Positions 173-53,815 of a stretch of 64,000 nt of DNA are shown here, piece after piece. This DNA is from Cohaesibacter marisflavi. GTDB taxonomy: Bacteria; Pseudomonadota; Alphaproteobacteria; Rhizobiales; Cohaesibacteraceae. How positions within the stretch are numbered: the first letter of the stretch is position 1; each line of letters begins with the position of its first letter. The DNA is taken from positions 1 through 64,000 of the forward strand of contig NZ_FOVR01000007.1 of NCBI RefSeq assembly GCF_900115225.1, given 5' to 3'. The translations under genes and the position numbers were made by a program. The notes under the pieces were generated by a model that was not told the DNA's origin, did no database searches, and was given only the letters and a program-made list of their open reading frames with translations.

Positions 173-297
173 CGCCGGCCCGGTGGTTATGGCGAGGACA
201 CCAAACCCGATCCCATCCCGAACTCGGCCGTTAATATCCTCTGCGCCAATGGTACTCCGTCTTAAGACGTGGGAGAGTAGGTCGCTGCCGGGCCTGC
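173..297 (+). rRNA. rrf: 5S rRNA
   Basis: The sequence has the alphaproteobacterial 5S core, including gatcccatcccgaactcggc and gggagagtaggtcgctgccg. The ends pair (gccggcccgg with ccgggcctgc), which sets the length at about 120-125 nt. No tRNA-fMet follows. A strong terminator begins 16 bases later, so 5S is the last gene of this operon. Confidence 0.95.
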
Positions 298-48693: not shown

Positions 48694-49410
48694 TTATTCT
48701 TCGTCGTCCTCATCTTTGGATGATGGCTGGAAGTTGGCAAAGACCGAAGCGGCATCCGGGATCGCTTCTTCGTCTTCAGCAGGCTTCTGAGTTGGTTTGA
48801 AGTTGCCGAACGGATCAGCTGCAGGCGCCAGAGATTCTTCAGGCGACAACAGGGTCGGATCCTGCTGATATTCCTGCTGGGCAGGGGCATCGGCTGCAGA
48901 TTTCTTCACTTCCAGATCGAGGTCAAGCTGTTTACAGATGCCCAGAGTAACCGGGTCCATCGGTGTCAGCTGGCCGGAGTTCCAATGGGTCCGGTTGCGG
49001 ATGGCTTCAATGGTCGGCTTTGTGGTGCCGACCAGACGCACGATCTGCTGATCTTTCAGTTCCGGATGATTGCGCACCAGCCAGAGAATCGCATTGGGGC
49101 GGTCCTGACGCTTGGATACCGGCGTATAGCGCGGGCCACGACGCTTGGGCTCGGGCACGGTAACTTTCGGTGGTGCCAGTTTCAACCGATATCTTGGCTC
49201 ATTCTGGGCTTTCTCAATTTCTTCACGGGTCAACTGACCGGTCATGATGGGGTCCATGCCCTTGATACCCTGGGCGGCCTCTCCATCTGCGATCGCTTTG
49301 ACTTCCAGTGGATGCAATTTGCAGAAAGCAGCAATCTGGTCGAAAGACAACGCCGTGTTATCGACCAGCCAAACTGCGGTTGCTTTCGGCATCAATGGTG
49401 CATTCGACAT
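48694..49410 (-). CDS. trcR: Cell-cycle transcriptional regulator TrcR (DUF1013)
   Basis: 238 residues. The N-terminus MPKATAVWLVDNTALSFDQIA and the middle stretch PNAILWLVRNHPELKDQQIVRLVGTTKPTIEAIRNR in pieces are the DUF1013/TrcR family core, with a helix-turn-helix-like organisation. The last 70 residues are acidic and Gln/Pro-rich. TrcR is an essential alphaproteobacterial regulator acting in the cell-cycle network. GAGGATGTACC precedes the ATG. Confidence 0.9.
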   Translation of the reverse strand: MSNAPLMPKATAVWLVDNTALSFDQIAAFCKLHPLEVKAIADGEAAQGIKGMDPIMTGQLTREEIEKAQNEPRYRLKLAPPKVTVPEPKRRGPRYTPVSKRQDRPNAILWLVRNHPELKDQQIVRLVGTTKPTIEAIRNRTHWNSGQLTPMDPVTLGICKQLDLDLEVKKSAADAPAQQEYQQDPTLLSPEESLAPAADPFGNFKPTQKPAEDEEAIPDAASVFANFQPSSKDEDDEE

Positions 49411-51432: not shown

Positions 51433-52461
51433 TTACAATTCCAGCATGATCTTGCCGATATGGCTGGAGCTTTCCATCAATTCATGCGCTTTTACGGCTT
51501 CTTCGAAGGGGAAGCATTTGTAGATCTGAGGTTTGACCAGACCACACCGGAGCAGCTGCCAAACCTCCATGCGGAGTTCCTTGGCGATGTCAGCCTTGAC
51601 CGCATCGGACCGGGCTCGAAGCGTGGAGCCTGTGTGGATGAGGCGCTTCATCATCAATCGGCGGAAATCTGCTTCCACGACCCCGCCATTGAGGAAGGCA
51701 ATCTGGACGATGCGTCCTTCTTCCGCTGCGACGACGTAGTTTTTAGAGATGTAATCGCCGCCAACCATGTCAAGAATGACATTCACGCCCTTGCGGTTTG
51801 TCCAATTCTTGATTTCGGTGACGAAATCCTGAGTCTTGTAGTTGATTGCGAGATCTGCCCCCGCATCGAGACAGGCCTGACATTTCTCATCGCTGCCAGC
51901 CGTAACTGCGACTTTGGCGCCAAAGGCCTTGCCTAGCTGAATGGCCGTGAGGCCGATGCCTGAAGAGCCGCCATGGACCAGCAGGGTTTCTTCGGCGTGC
52001 AGCTTGCCACGCTGGAATACATTGTGCCAGACGGTGAAAATATTCTCTGGCATGCTGGCCGCTTCGGTGAAGCTCCAGCCCTTGGGGATTTCCAGGGCAC
52101 TGCCTGCATGAGCGAGGCAATATTCTGCATAACCTCCGCCTGAGACCAGAGCCGCGGCGCTATCACCCACTTTCCAGTCTGTGACATTGGCGCCCACTTT
52201 TACGATTTCTCCGGCGACTTCCAGTCCCAGAATGTCGGATGCGCCCGGAGGGGGCGGATAGTTGCCCGCCCTCTGGATGCAGTCAGGACGGTTCACTCCG
52301 GCTGCCTTGACCTTGATCAGTATCTGGTCGTCTGCGGGGGTGGGAACGGGGCGGGTGATGACTTGGAGCTTTTCCGGTCCTCCCGGCTCAGAGGCTATGA
52401 TGGCTTTCATTTCCGTTGCGTCCTGCATGATCATTCCTGTCTGACTGGAGTTTTGTGACAT
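51433..52461 (-). CDS. qor: NAD(P)H:quinone oxidoreductase, zinc-free MDR family
   Basis: Up to 342 residues. This is a medium-chain dehydrogenase/reductase without zinc ligands: the PIG3/QOR-type N-terminus MKAIIASEPGGPEKLQ, VKAAGVNRPDCIQRAGNYPPPPG, the Rossmann loop VHGGSSGIGLTAIQLGKAFG (about 145-165) and a C-terminal typical end. The start is uncertain: ATG 52461, ATG 52428 (which has AGGA at 6 bases) and the later MKAI start are all possible; the family usually begins near the last. It reduces quinones or 2-enones with NAD(P)H. Confidence 0.85.
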   Translation of the reverse strand: MSQNSSQTGMIMQDATEMKAIIASEPGGPEKLQVITRPVPTPADDQILIKVKAAGVNRPDCIQRAGNYPPPPGASDILGLEVAGEIVKVGANVTDWKVGDSAAALVSGGGYAEYCLAHAGSALEIPKGWSFTEAASMPENIFTVWHNVFQRGKLHAEETLLVHGGSSGIGLTAIQLGKAFGAKVAVTAGSDEKCQACLDAGADLAINYKTQDFVTEIKNWTNRKGVNVILDMVGGDYISKNYVVAAEEGRIVQIAFLNGGVVEADFRRLMMKRLIHTGSTLRARSDAVKADIAKELRMEVWQLLRCGLVKPQIYKCFPFEEAVKAHELMESSSHIGKIMLEL

Positions 52462-52682
52462 TGTGTCATTTCTAGCGGATATTCTCTATCTAGGGAATGC
52501 GCTCAATGGCTTAAAGGCTTGAAGCTGCAGGGTTGGCCTAAGGGGTAGGCTGGATCGGAAGTTGAAGTTTTAAAGTATAAAATTTTGATGTCGATGTATT
52601 TATAAGGTTTTATTGAAAATAATTTTGTTTGGTTGTGATTAAATTTGTTCTCTATTTGGTTGTGGGAAGGAAAAATTTTAAA

Positions 52683-52720
52683 TTAACAAAAAATTAATCA
52701 TTATATGTGTAAAGTATAGT
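52683..52720 (+). promoter_or_regulatory. Candidate CtrA box and promoter of the small RNA
   Basis: A perfect TTAA-N7-TTAA box (TTAACAAAAAATTAA, 52683-52697) stands upstream of a TATAGT -10-like hexamer at 52715-52720. That puts the box near position -35 relative to a start at about 52727, the place where CtrA activates. The box lies in AT-rich DNA, so chance is not excluded. Confidence 0.45.
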
Positions 52721-52726
52721 ATCCAT

Positions 52727-52811
52727 GATTTATGGATTTCGAGTGGCTCCTGTCACTCTGTTTGACGCCTCCCTGTTAACTCCTGAGAGCCGCTCTTGCG
52801 GCTCTTTTTTT
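52727..52811 (+). ncRNA. Candidate trans-acting small RNA with anti-Shine-Dalgarno-like segments
   Basis: A stretch of about 85 bases ends in a strong intrinsic terminator (agagccgc / gcggctct with a 4-base loop, then seven or eight T). It lies in a 805-base gene-free region between qor and rcdA. Before the terminator a hairpin (GAGTG / CACTC) shows GCTCCTGT in the loop, and GCCTCCCTG and ACTCCTG are in unpaired DNA. Three CU-rich copies of an anti-SD-like sequence and a rho-independent end are typical of Hfq-dependent sRNAs of Rhizobiales, such as the alpha-r14 and similar families. I cannot assign a family. No ORF of note lies in it. Confidence 0.6.
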
Positions 52812-53266
52812 GTGTGTCGAATTTTATCAACCGGTATTCAGGTAATGCATGGGGTGTCCTTTCTTTTTCTTTCAGGCCCCGCAACTGATGCGTTAGTGAA
52901 TTGTTAACCAATTGAATTAGCTTTTATTTTCTCACCGCCTGTTTTTGCTGGAATCGTGTAAAATCACAACTGTCTCATTATGGAGCTGTTTGTGTCTTGT
53001 TTTGGTGATGCTTGGTGTGACCGGTTAGGCCGTTTGGTTTTATGCGATCGGCGGGAATCATTGGCTCCGTGAGATCGTTTCTGCTAAAGTCAGCACGTTA
53101 CCTGACCAAATTGGCTTGTTTTTAGCGGTCTGGGCATCTGTCAAGATTGCAAAATGTCGATGGCATGGTTTGTGCTTGTTATTCTGCGAAATGACAATTT
53201 GGTGTAATGTCTGTTTGAATTTGACACATCGGACATGGTAGGCATGACCAGGCATTTGGAGGTCAC
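52812..53266. other. Gene-free stretch before rcdA
   Basis: About 455 bases with no convincing gene and no recognised structure. It contains a lone TTAACC half-site at about 52909 and probably the rcdA promoter near its right end. Confidence 0.6.
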
Positions 53267-53815
53267 ATGAACGACAAGCGTAAGCAAACGAATATAACGG
53301 CTCCGGTTTCCTTTGGAGCAAAGCTTGCAGATTCCGATAGTTTTAAAACCCTGTTTCGCGATGGTATGGCGCTGGTAGAAGAAGCCGCCGATTATCTGGA
53401 CGGGGAAGGGCGCGCTGAGGCAAAGAGCCTGCCGAGGGTCGCTTCTCTTGCCTATGCTACCGAATCCATGCGGCTGACAACGCGCCTGATGCAGATGGCA
53501 TCCTGGTTGCTTCTGCAGCGCGCCGTCAATGAAGGCGAAATGACGCTGGAGCAGGCCGGGCAGGAAAAGAACAAGGTTCGCCTGCATGGGCTTTCTTCTT
53601 CCAAGGACAGCCCGGGGTGGGATGAACTGCCGCCGCGTCTGCGCGATCTGATCGAACAGTCCATGCACATGCAGAAACGCATCCGGCATCTTGACGAGGT
53701 TATCTACTCCAAGCGTGATGCGGAAGAGACGAGAGAAGACATTGTACAGGCCAATCCGGTTGGCGACCAGATCGGTATGATCGCGAATGCCTTTGCTGCT
53801 AGAGCTGCCGAATAG
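53267..53815 (+). CDS. rcdA: RcdA-like protein (DUF1465)
   Basis: 182 residues, mostly helical. SKDSPGWDELPPRLRDLIEQSMHMQKRI and the stretch ESMRLTTRLMQMASWLLLQRA match the DUF1465/RcdA family, which in Caulobacter helps the CpdR/ClpXP-dependent degradation of CtrA. ATG 53267 has TTTGGAGGTCAC upstream. It lies next to a candidate CtrA-linked sRNA, but is separated by a long gap. Confidence 0.88.
   Translation: MNDKRKQTNITAPVSFGAKLADSDSFKTLFRDGMALVEEAADYLDGEGRAEAKSLPRVASLAYATESMRLTTRLMQMASWLLLQRAVNEGEMTLEQAGQEKNKVRLHGLSSSKDSPGWDELPPRLRDLIEQSMHMQKRIRHLDEVIYSKRDAEETREDIVQANPVGDQIGMIANAFAARAAE

Follow-up and report, generated by a model that had tools for sequence, protein, structure and literature searches.

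An sRNA of the BjrC1505 family lies between an oxidoreductase gene and rcdA

All coordinates refer to the window, i.e. the whole stretch of positions 1 to 64,000 of Cohaesibacter marisflavi contig NZ_FOVR01000007.1. The 805-base gene-free region reported in the original prediction was confirmed at 52462-53266; it separates the start of an oxidoreductase gene from the start of rcdA and contains the sRNA element. The features of the locus, with the evidence on which each assignment is based, are as follows.

51433-52461, minus strand: gene for a zinc-binding-dehydrogenase-family oxidoreductase, the conserved divergent upstream neighbour (120 of 196 loci)
52683-52697, plus strand: CtrA-type box TTAA-N7-TTAA, 8/8 positions, TTAACAAAAAATTAA (sequence; conserved place in core-selected loci; 129-locus profile)
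52710-52715, plus strand: likely -10 element TAAAGT (box-anchored profile of 129 loci; genus sequences)
52721-52811, plus strand: predicted sRNA of the BjrC1505 family (RF02356), about 90 nt (Rfam match and fold; 5' end deduced from the place of the box and of SL1)
52721-52737, plus strand: stem-loop SL1 (fold; 5 of 6 pairs changed on both sides)
52741-52758, plus strand: stem-loop SL2, with CUCCUG in and beside the loop, not in all relatives (fold; 4 of 6 pairs changed on both sides)
52762-52779, plus strand: weak hairpin SL3, near-invariant UUUGACGCCUCCCUGUU, loop CCUCCC, the predicted seed (fold and alignment)
52785-52811, plus strand: intrinsic terminator with U-run (fold; 95.8% of cells pair, with double changes in 5 of 8 pairs)
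53267-53815, plus strand: rcdA (DUF1465, PF07323), the conserved downstream neighbour (167 of 196 loci)

At the other end of the window, near its start, lies a 5S rRNA (179-293, plus strand).

An Rfam search returned RF02356 (BjrC1505) at 52675-52811, with model positions 1-140 of 140 covered and a score of 88.2 bits (E 2.5e-15), above the gathering cut-off of 50 bits. What had been put forward as a new candidate sRNA is thus already a member of a described family, and it is present in one copy in its own genome. The first ~46 model positions, which span the promoter including the box and not the predicted transcript, align poorly here. The same search had been proposed with alpha-r14 in mind; we found no gathering-level match to that family or to the AbcR families. 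At E up to 1, the only other match in 52450-53270 was suhB/mmgR, which at 24 bits is under its cut-off of 41, and an identity with MmgR (RF00519) was rejected on these grounds. The original BjrC1505 study reportedly contained Northern evidence in Bradyrhizobium. BjrC names are also used in a Bradyrhizobium start-site paper (PMC4842269).

Generic scans were uninformative: one terminator-like site was found versus 2.0 in shuffled sequences, and two promoter-like sites versus 1.9, the originally proposed promoter not being among them. Since these scans do no better than shuffles, the case rests on evidence that does stand above chance, namely the Rfam match, the folding energy, covariation and the conserved box. 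A mechanical 60-codon ORF (52725-52907) begins within SL1; it is apparently not a conserved gene, because an ATG precedes the core in just 38 of 129 non-redundant representatives and single-base indels occur between the helices, and a small protein is not supported as an explanation. Judged by its sequence, the element is a free-standing, well-conserved member of a known, little-studied sRNA family, and it is presumably transcribed in C. marisflavi.

The family is common in the order and extends beyond it

With the window's own genome included in each count, RF02356 exceeds its cut-off in 52 of 61 relatives, in 212 of 297 sampled genomes of the order and in 17 of 385 genomes across the class, the last figure rising to 40 at E up to 0.001. 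None of 14 control genomes, presumably including Caulobacter vibrioides, has a match. A scan of named genomes with the sRNA core alone returned at least 118 loci, e.g. in Bradyrhizobium, Mesorhizobium, Phyllobacterium, Devosia, Bosea, Roseibium, Stappia and Methylobacterium, and also in Kiloniella and Sneathiella. Four of the 118 (one in Lentisphaerae, two in Planctomycetes and one in Rhodopila), all lacking the box, were removed as chance matches and three more for lying too close to a locus edge, leaving 111 core-selected loci. In one genus, loci L026 and L027 carry two sRNA cores 200 bases apart, a tandem duplication, and the two genomes (G378 and G210) have two RF02356 matches each.

Three helices are maintained by compensatory changes and one anti-SD-like segment is near-invariant

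The segment 52720-52810 has a predicted folding energy of -34.5 kcal/mol (z -5.92), and none of 200 shuffles folded equally low. From 5' to 3', the predicted fold consists of SL1, SL2, the weak SL3 and the terminator, whose hairpin proper (52785-52806) is followed by the U-run. Covariation was assessed in an alignment of 81 distinct sequences drawn from the 129 non-redundant representatives. RNAalifold retained just SL3 and the terminator on this alignment; for the counts, SL1 and SL2 were placed manually according to the window's row. Across SL1, SL2 and the terminator, 92.9% of cells are paired and 14 of 20 pairs show changes on both sides, with 94 double-change cells compared with 23.2 in shuffles. 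These three helices are therefore maintained by compensatory changes, as expected of a BjrC1505 member, and the intrinsic terminator that had been recognised from the sequence proves to be not only present but co-varying. The pairs of SL3 hardly vary, so that covariation is no test of SL3 pairing.

The element had been described as carrying three anti-Shine-Dalgarno (anti-SD)-like segments ahead of the terminator. The CU-rich segments are indeed there in the window, but the family does not share all of them: CTCCTG occurs in the SL2 region of 64 of the 129 non-redundant loci and in the linker of 23, and a CU-rich word is present in all three places in just 13. The SL3 segment is present in 128 of 129 loci, a set picked by that very core, and in 82 of 84 Rfam-selected loci, the Rfam model weighing the core too. 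Among the three anti-SD-like segments, then, the alignments indicate that the one in SL3 is the sole family trait. It and the terminator stem are conserved in relatives, while the segments in SL2 and the linker are kept in only some of them. Five loci of Mesorhizobium and relatives have TGGAG in the SL2 loop, which is SD-like and not anti-SD. The only trait of the Hfq-dependent, trans-acting sRNA type that we observed is the terminator with its U-run.

A CtrA-type box occupies a fixed place ahead of the sRNA

The perfect TTAA-N7-TTAA box of the original prediction is present at 52683-52697, over the predicted -35 region. Because the Rfam model covers the promoter, we counted the box in loci selected solely by the core. 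At a fixed place, 106 of the 111 core-selected loci have a box with at least 7/8 positions (49 perfect; 5 without a 7-of-8 box at the right place), its end lying 60-78 bases ahead of the core; in 20,400 control windows from the same loci the frequency was 0.15%, with none perfect. Comparison with dinucleotide shuffles of the promoter segments gave the same picture, with at least 7/8 positions in 105 of 110 segments versus 3.4% in shuffles and a perfect box in 48 of 110 versus 0.18%. Among the Rfam-selected loci, which are biased towards the box because the RF02356 model covers it, 79 of 84 have the box and 5 have no 7-of-8 box in place; outside the order, at least one Rfam-selected locus with the box was found in 11 of 12 family groups.

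In the 129-locus profile, the box consensus is TTAAC-N6-TTAA and the -10 element begins 12 positions past the box end. This conserved element occupies box positions 26-31 in the profile and 27-32 here, i.e. within one base, and corresponds to TAAAGT. The TATAGT originally taken for the -10 does exist at 52715-52720, but it is less conserved than the element ~5 bases upstream. The two assignments have different consequences for the 5' end: the conserved position places the start near 52721, just ahead of SL1, while with TATAGT as the -10 the RNA would begin inside the co-varying SL1. On the same contig, a CtrA query sequence finds a match with 95% identity. GANTC (CcrM) sites lie near the box in just 30 of 129 loci and were discarded as a conserved feature. 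Taken at face value, the conserved CtrA-type site would be bound by CtrA, and it suggests that this old and widespread sRNA may be under cell-cycle control.

The sRNA usually precedes rcdA, and persists where rcdA is elsewhere

The gene downstream of the sRNA and on its strand is rcdA in 167 of 196 loci, with a median of 230 bases from the core to the rcdA start, and the upstream gene on the opposite strand is the oxidoreductase in 120 of 196. These counts omit two loci in which the exact core is missing. The 28 loci without an RcdA match at the E limit of 1e-8 include incomplete loci and at least two weaker matches, L026 and L027, at an E limit of 1e-5; of the 54 matches in the RcdA search, 30 were turned into loci. 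Synteny and conservation bear out the proposal of an sRNA gene that neighbours rcdA, is driven by a promoter of the CtrA type and has a terminator of its own, each of these three features being conserved.

The exceptions are instructive. In genome G041 rcdA lies 41 kb from the sRNA on the same contig, the box is perfect and a sulfhydrylase gene, as judged by eye, follows the sRNA; in G080 rcdA is on another contig, the box is below 7/8 and a thioesterase gene follows (again by eye); in G001 the sRNA is present with a perfect box and rcdA was not found. Two further loci without a nearby RcdA match have a 7/8 box and what looks by eye like a 3-hydroxyisobutyrate-type dehydrogenase gene after the sRNA. 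In L145, from a Bradyrhizobium, the sRNA and its box lie in inverted orientation to rcdA and the usual neighbours; since the contig is metagenome-assembled, an assembly error is possible. As the sRNA stays, mostly with its box, where rcdA is elsewhere or not found, it is not simply a leader of rcdA. Between the terminator and rcdA, 61 of 166 loci have a second CtrA-like box, compared with 0.9% of 140-base control windows.

Three genes upstream of the sRNA, the window also encodes TrcR (PF06242, transcriptional cell cycle regulator; 48694-49410, minus strand), which places the sRNA close to other cell-cycle genes; of 196 loci, 38 have an upstream TrcR match, which in 37 of them is on the opposite strand.

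A divergent ortholog in Sinorhizobium

A model built from the 81-sequence alignment and run over 36 rcdA loci matched 11 at E < 1e-5 and gave none in the other 25. Some of the 11 are expected by construction: one is the window itself and three come from genomes whose RNA, or a close one, had trained the model. Matches beyond the training set came from S. meliloti, another Sinorhizobium and Shinella, loci in which Rfam at E up to 0.01 returned nothing, so that the S. meliloti RNA is without an RF02356 match. Upstream of rcdA in S. meliloti Ak57 we find a perfect box, SL1 in the same place, CUCCCUGUU and a terminator, together with a changed seed flank and a changed SL2. By these features it is a divergent ortholog upstream of rcdA in Sinorhizobium. 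The Ak57 locus (L234) has two perfect TTAA-N7-TTAA boxes, one before the sRNA (2165-2179) and one in the sRNA-rcdA interval (2339-2353). MmgR (RF00519) had no match in the 30-kb S. meliloti stretch around rcdA. CP090106.1, the 3.7 Mb record of L234 and L321, is named plasmid pSymB; this record, on which rpmE, tkt and the genes for phosphoglycerate kinase and 6S RNA are found, is probably a mislabelled chromosome.

The Ak57 RNA predicted from the box is 100 nt long, on the plus strand and 13,005 bases from 6S RNA. SmelC671 of S. meliloti 1021 is a sequenced transcript of 100 nt on the plus strand, 14,331 bases from 6S (PMC2873474, excerpts); the two agree in length and strand and differ by 1,326 bases in the distance to 6S. 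SmelC671 has described relatives as far as Bradyrhizobiaceae and Methylobacteriaceae, where microsynteny is extensive and a terminator is present (PMC3927594, excerpts), and the name Sm84 appears in PMC2573895. The Sinorhizobium ortholog is probably this transcript, SmelC671/Sm84 (ReC71 of Rhizobium etli).

In S. meliloti, CtrA is bound in the rcdA promoter region and its depletion leaves rcdA expression unchanged (PMC4433202, excerpts). The sRNA promoter offers one possible reason for this binding without an effect on rcdA; rcdA itself is likewise preceded by a perfect box in this species. Agrobacterial rcdA is transcribed from several start sites, and its CtrA site lies further upstream than that of Caulobacter (PMC10469942, excerpts), a layout that, by analogy, would fit an sRNA-plus-rcdA arrangement.

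Discussion

In this study we describe a BjrC1505-family sRNA gene that is probably activated by CtrA through the conserved box and most likely acts in trans through SL3 on ribosome-binding sites. In the model that we favour, phosphorylated CtrA (CtrA~P) would bind the TTAA-N7-TTAA box, which spans the -35 region and ends ~24 bases ahead of the predicted start, and would thereby activate transcription of the sRNA, activation being inferred here in preference to repression. Transcription would end at the sRNA's own terminator after ~90 nt, and the RNA would fold into SL1, SL2, the weak SL3 with its CCUCCC loop exposed, and the terminator. Acting most likely in trans, the SL3 seed would pair with ribosome-binding sites of the AGGGAGG type and lower the translation of a set of mRNAs while CtrA is active.

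As to the targets, the pattern CAGGGAGG-N2-9-ATG occurs 21 times in the window's own genome versus 4 for the reversed pattern, an excess that may simply reflect ordinary SD sequences. Four of the 11 own-genome CAGGGAGG sites whose frame has 40 or more codons precede transporter-like genes (judged by eye), which makes transporter mRNAs a lead only. A 13-base match in the own genome, CAGGGAGGCGTCATG, was set aside, its 107-codon frame looking spurious. Seed pairing with the start regions of ctrA (30), gcrA (29) and rcdA (166) was not outstanding: of 95 background SD-bearing starts, 46%, 49% and 31%, respectively, pair at least as well as the medians, in a test that covered -40 to +15 of script-chosen gene starts. 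As these start regions are ordinary partners, direct feedback on them is unsupported.

The linkage to rcdA on the same strand and to the oxidoreductase gene makes an rcdA 5' leader a serious rival: a CtrA promoter would feed a terminator that stops most transcripts, regulated read-through (attenuation) would set rcdA expression, and the short RNA would be a by-product. Besides the position of the sRNA upstream of rcdA in the great majority of loci, a possible antiterminator speaks for this reading, since the SL2 strand GUGGCUC (52743-52749) could pair with the terminator arm GAGCCGC (52787-52793), with 86.3% of cells paired. However, covariation lends this alternative pairing no support (3 double-change cells versus 2.5 in shuffles), and an attenuator should always lie upstream of rcdA, while the sRNA is kept in G041, G080, G001 and further lineages with other genes downstream and is inverted relative to rcdA in L145. 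Where rcdA does follow, in over a third of the loci it has its own CtrA-like box after the terminator, both boxes being perfect in S. meliloti. We therefore reject the attenuator as set out above and regard a leader function as quite improbable.

Two other readings accept the sRNA as real and question, respectively, its regulator and its mode of action. SciP and MucR can act at CtrA sites, and the box might serve such a regulator, or might be a site of repression by CtrA. The bound S. meliloti rcdA promoter, with rcdA expression unchanged on CtrA depletion (PMC4433202, excerpts), would be compatible with either. Against this stand the exact spacing of 7, the TTAACC half-site and the position over the -35 region, all of which fit activation by CtrA, as well as the recurrence of the box in nearly all family groups outside the order, and we judge a box that does not mediate activation by CtrA to be unlikely. 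Somewhat less unlikely, in our estimation, is that the RNA mainly binds a protein, another sRNA or one specific mRNA and does not broadly repress through anti-SD pairing: the near-invariant stretch of ~17 bases exceeds what anti-SD pairing needs, two of the three CU-rich segments are no family trait, and the three cell-cycle start regions behave as ordinary partners. Yet in Sinorhizobium it is the anti-SD part that remains when the conserved stretch is reduced to CUCCCUGUU.

The sRNA family itself is already known; the new and testable part is the conserved CtrA-type promoter, which stays constant when rcdA is not the neighbour. Among the papers listed from the searchable literature we found, by title, abstract opening and excerpts, no report of a CtrA link for the BjrC1505 family, and PMC5082802 mentions neither BjrC nor CtrA. 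On a broader view, which we hold tentatively and with slightly more doubt than conviction, BjrC1505, SmelC671/Sm84 and ReC71 would be one ancient sRNA that belongs to the core of the CtrA regulon, both in Hyphomicrobiales and in several other alphaproteobacterial families; active CtrA would make an anti-SD RNA beside the gene of its own degradation adaptor, and the translation of certain mRNAs, possibly for nutrient uptake, would thereby be coupled to the cell cycle. If so, the known sRNA family would gain a candidate regulator and a time at which it acts. CtrA, for its part, would have a riboregulatory output, which could be tested in the tractable Sinorhizobium and Bradyrhizobium. Part of the signal in CtrA ChIP ahead of S. 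meliloti rcdA would also come from the sRNA promoter, giving the peak at that gene a possible second reading.

How does the element compare with other sRNAs? AbcR has an anti-SD design. NfeR1 has anti-SD motifs in its hairpin loops and silences mRNAs most of which are predicted to encode transport proteins (PMC7143759, excerpts). As NfeR1/alpha-r14 carries the motif in all three hairpin loops while here SL3 alone is a family trait, and as alpha-r14 gave no gathering-level match, a three-fold anti-SD design was rejected. EcpR1 (SmelC291), a conserved rhizobial sRNA linked to cell-cycle control, lies at divK-pleD/rpmG, has the loop UCCGCCGCAUCU, is stress-induced and, by a section heading, Hfq-independent (PMC4414408, excerpts); UCCGCCGCAUCU is absent from our RNA, whose neighbours are the oxidoreductase gene and rcdA and not divK-pleD, and an identity with EcpR1 was dismissed. 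CcnA of Caulobacter crescentus is a presumably CtrA-activated ncRNA of 182 nt within the replication origin that has a CCCC loop and targets cell-cycle mRNAs (PMC8959179, excerpts). It is longer than our RNA and differs from it in place and loop, and the control genomes have no RF02356 match, all of which leaves an identity with CcnA unsupported; the two are alike in having a CtrA-type box near the start, and the placement of the family box resembles that at -23 in the CcnA promoter. Similarly, the half-site and geometry of the family box resemble the S. meliloti CtrA consensus, TAA-N7-TTAAC (PMC3616915, excerpts). The closest likeness is to BjrC1505 of the Bradyrhizobium/Rhodopseudomonas lineage itself, which the C. 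marisflavi element matches over the full length of the model, with helices, seed and terminator alike.
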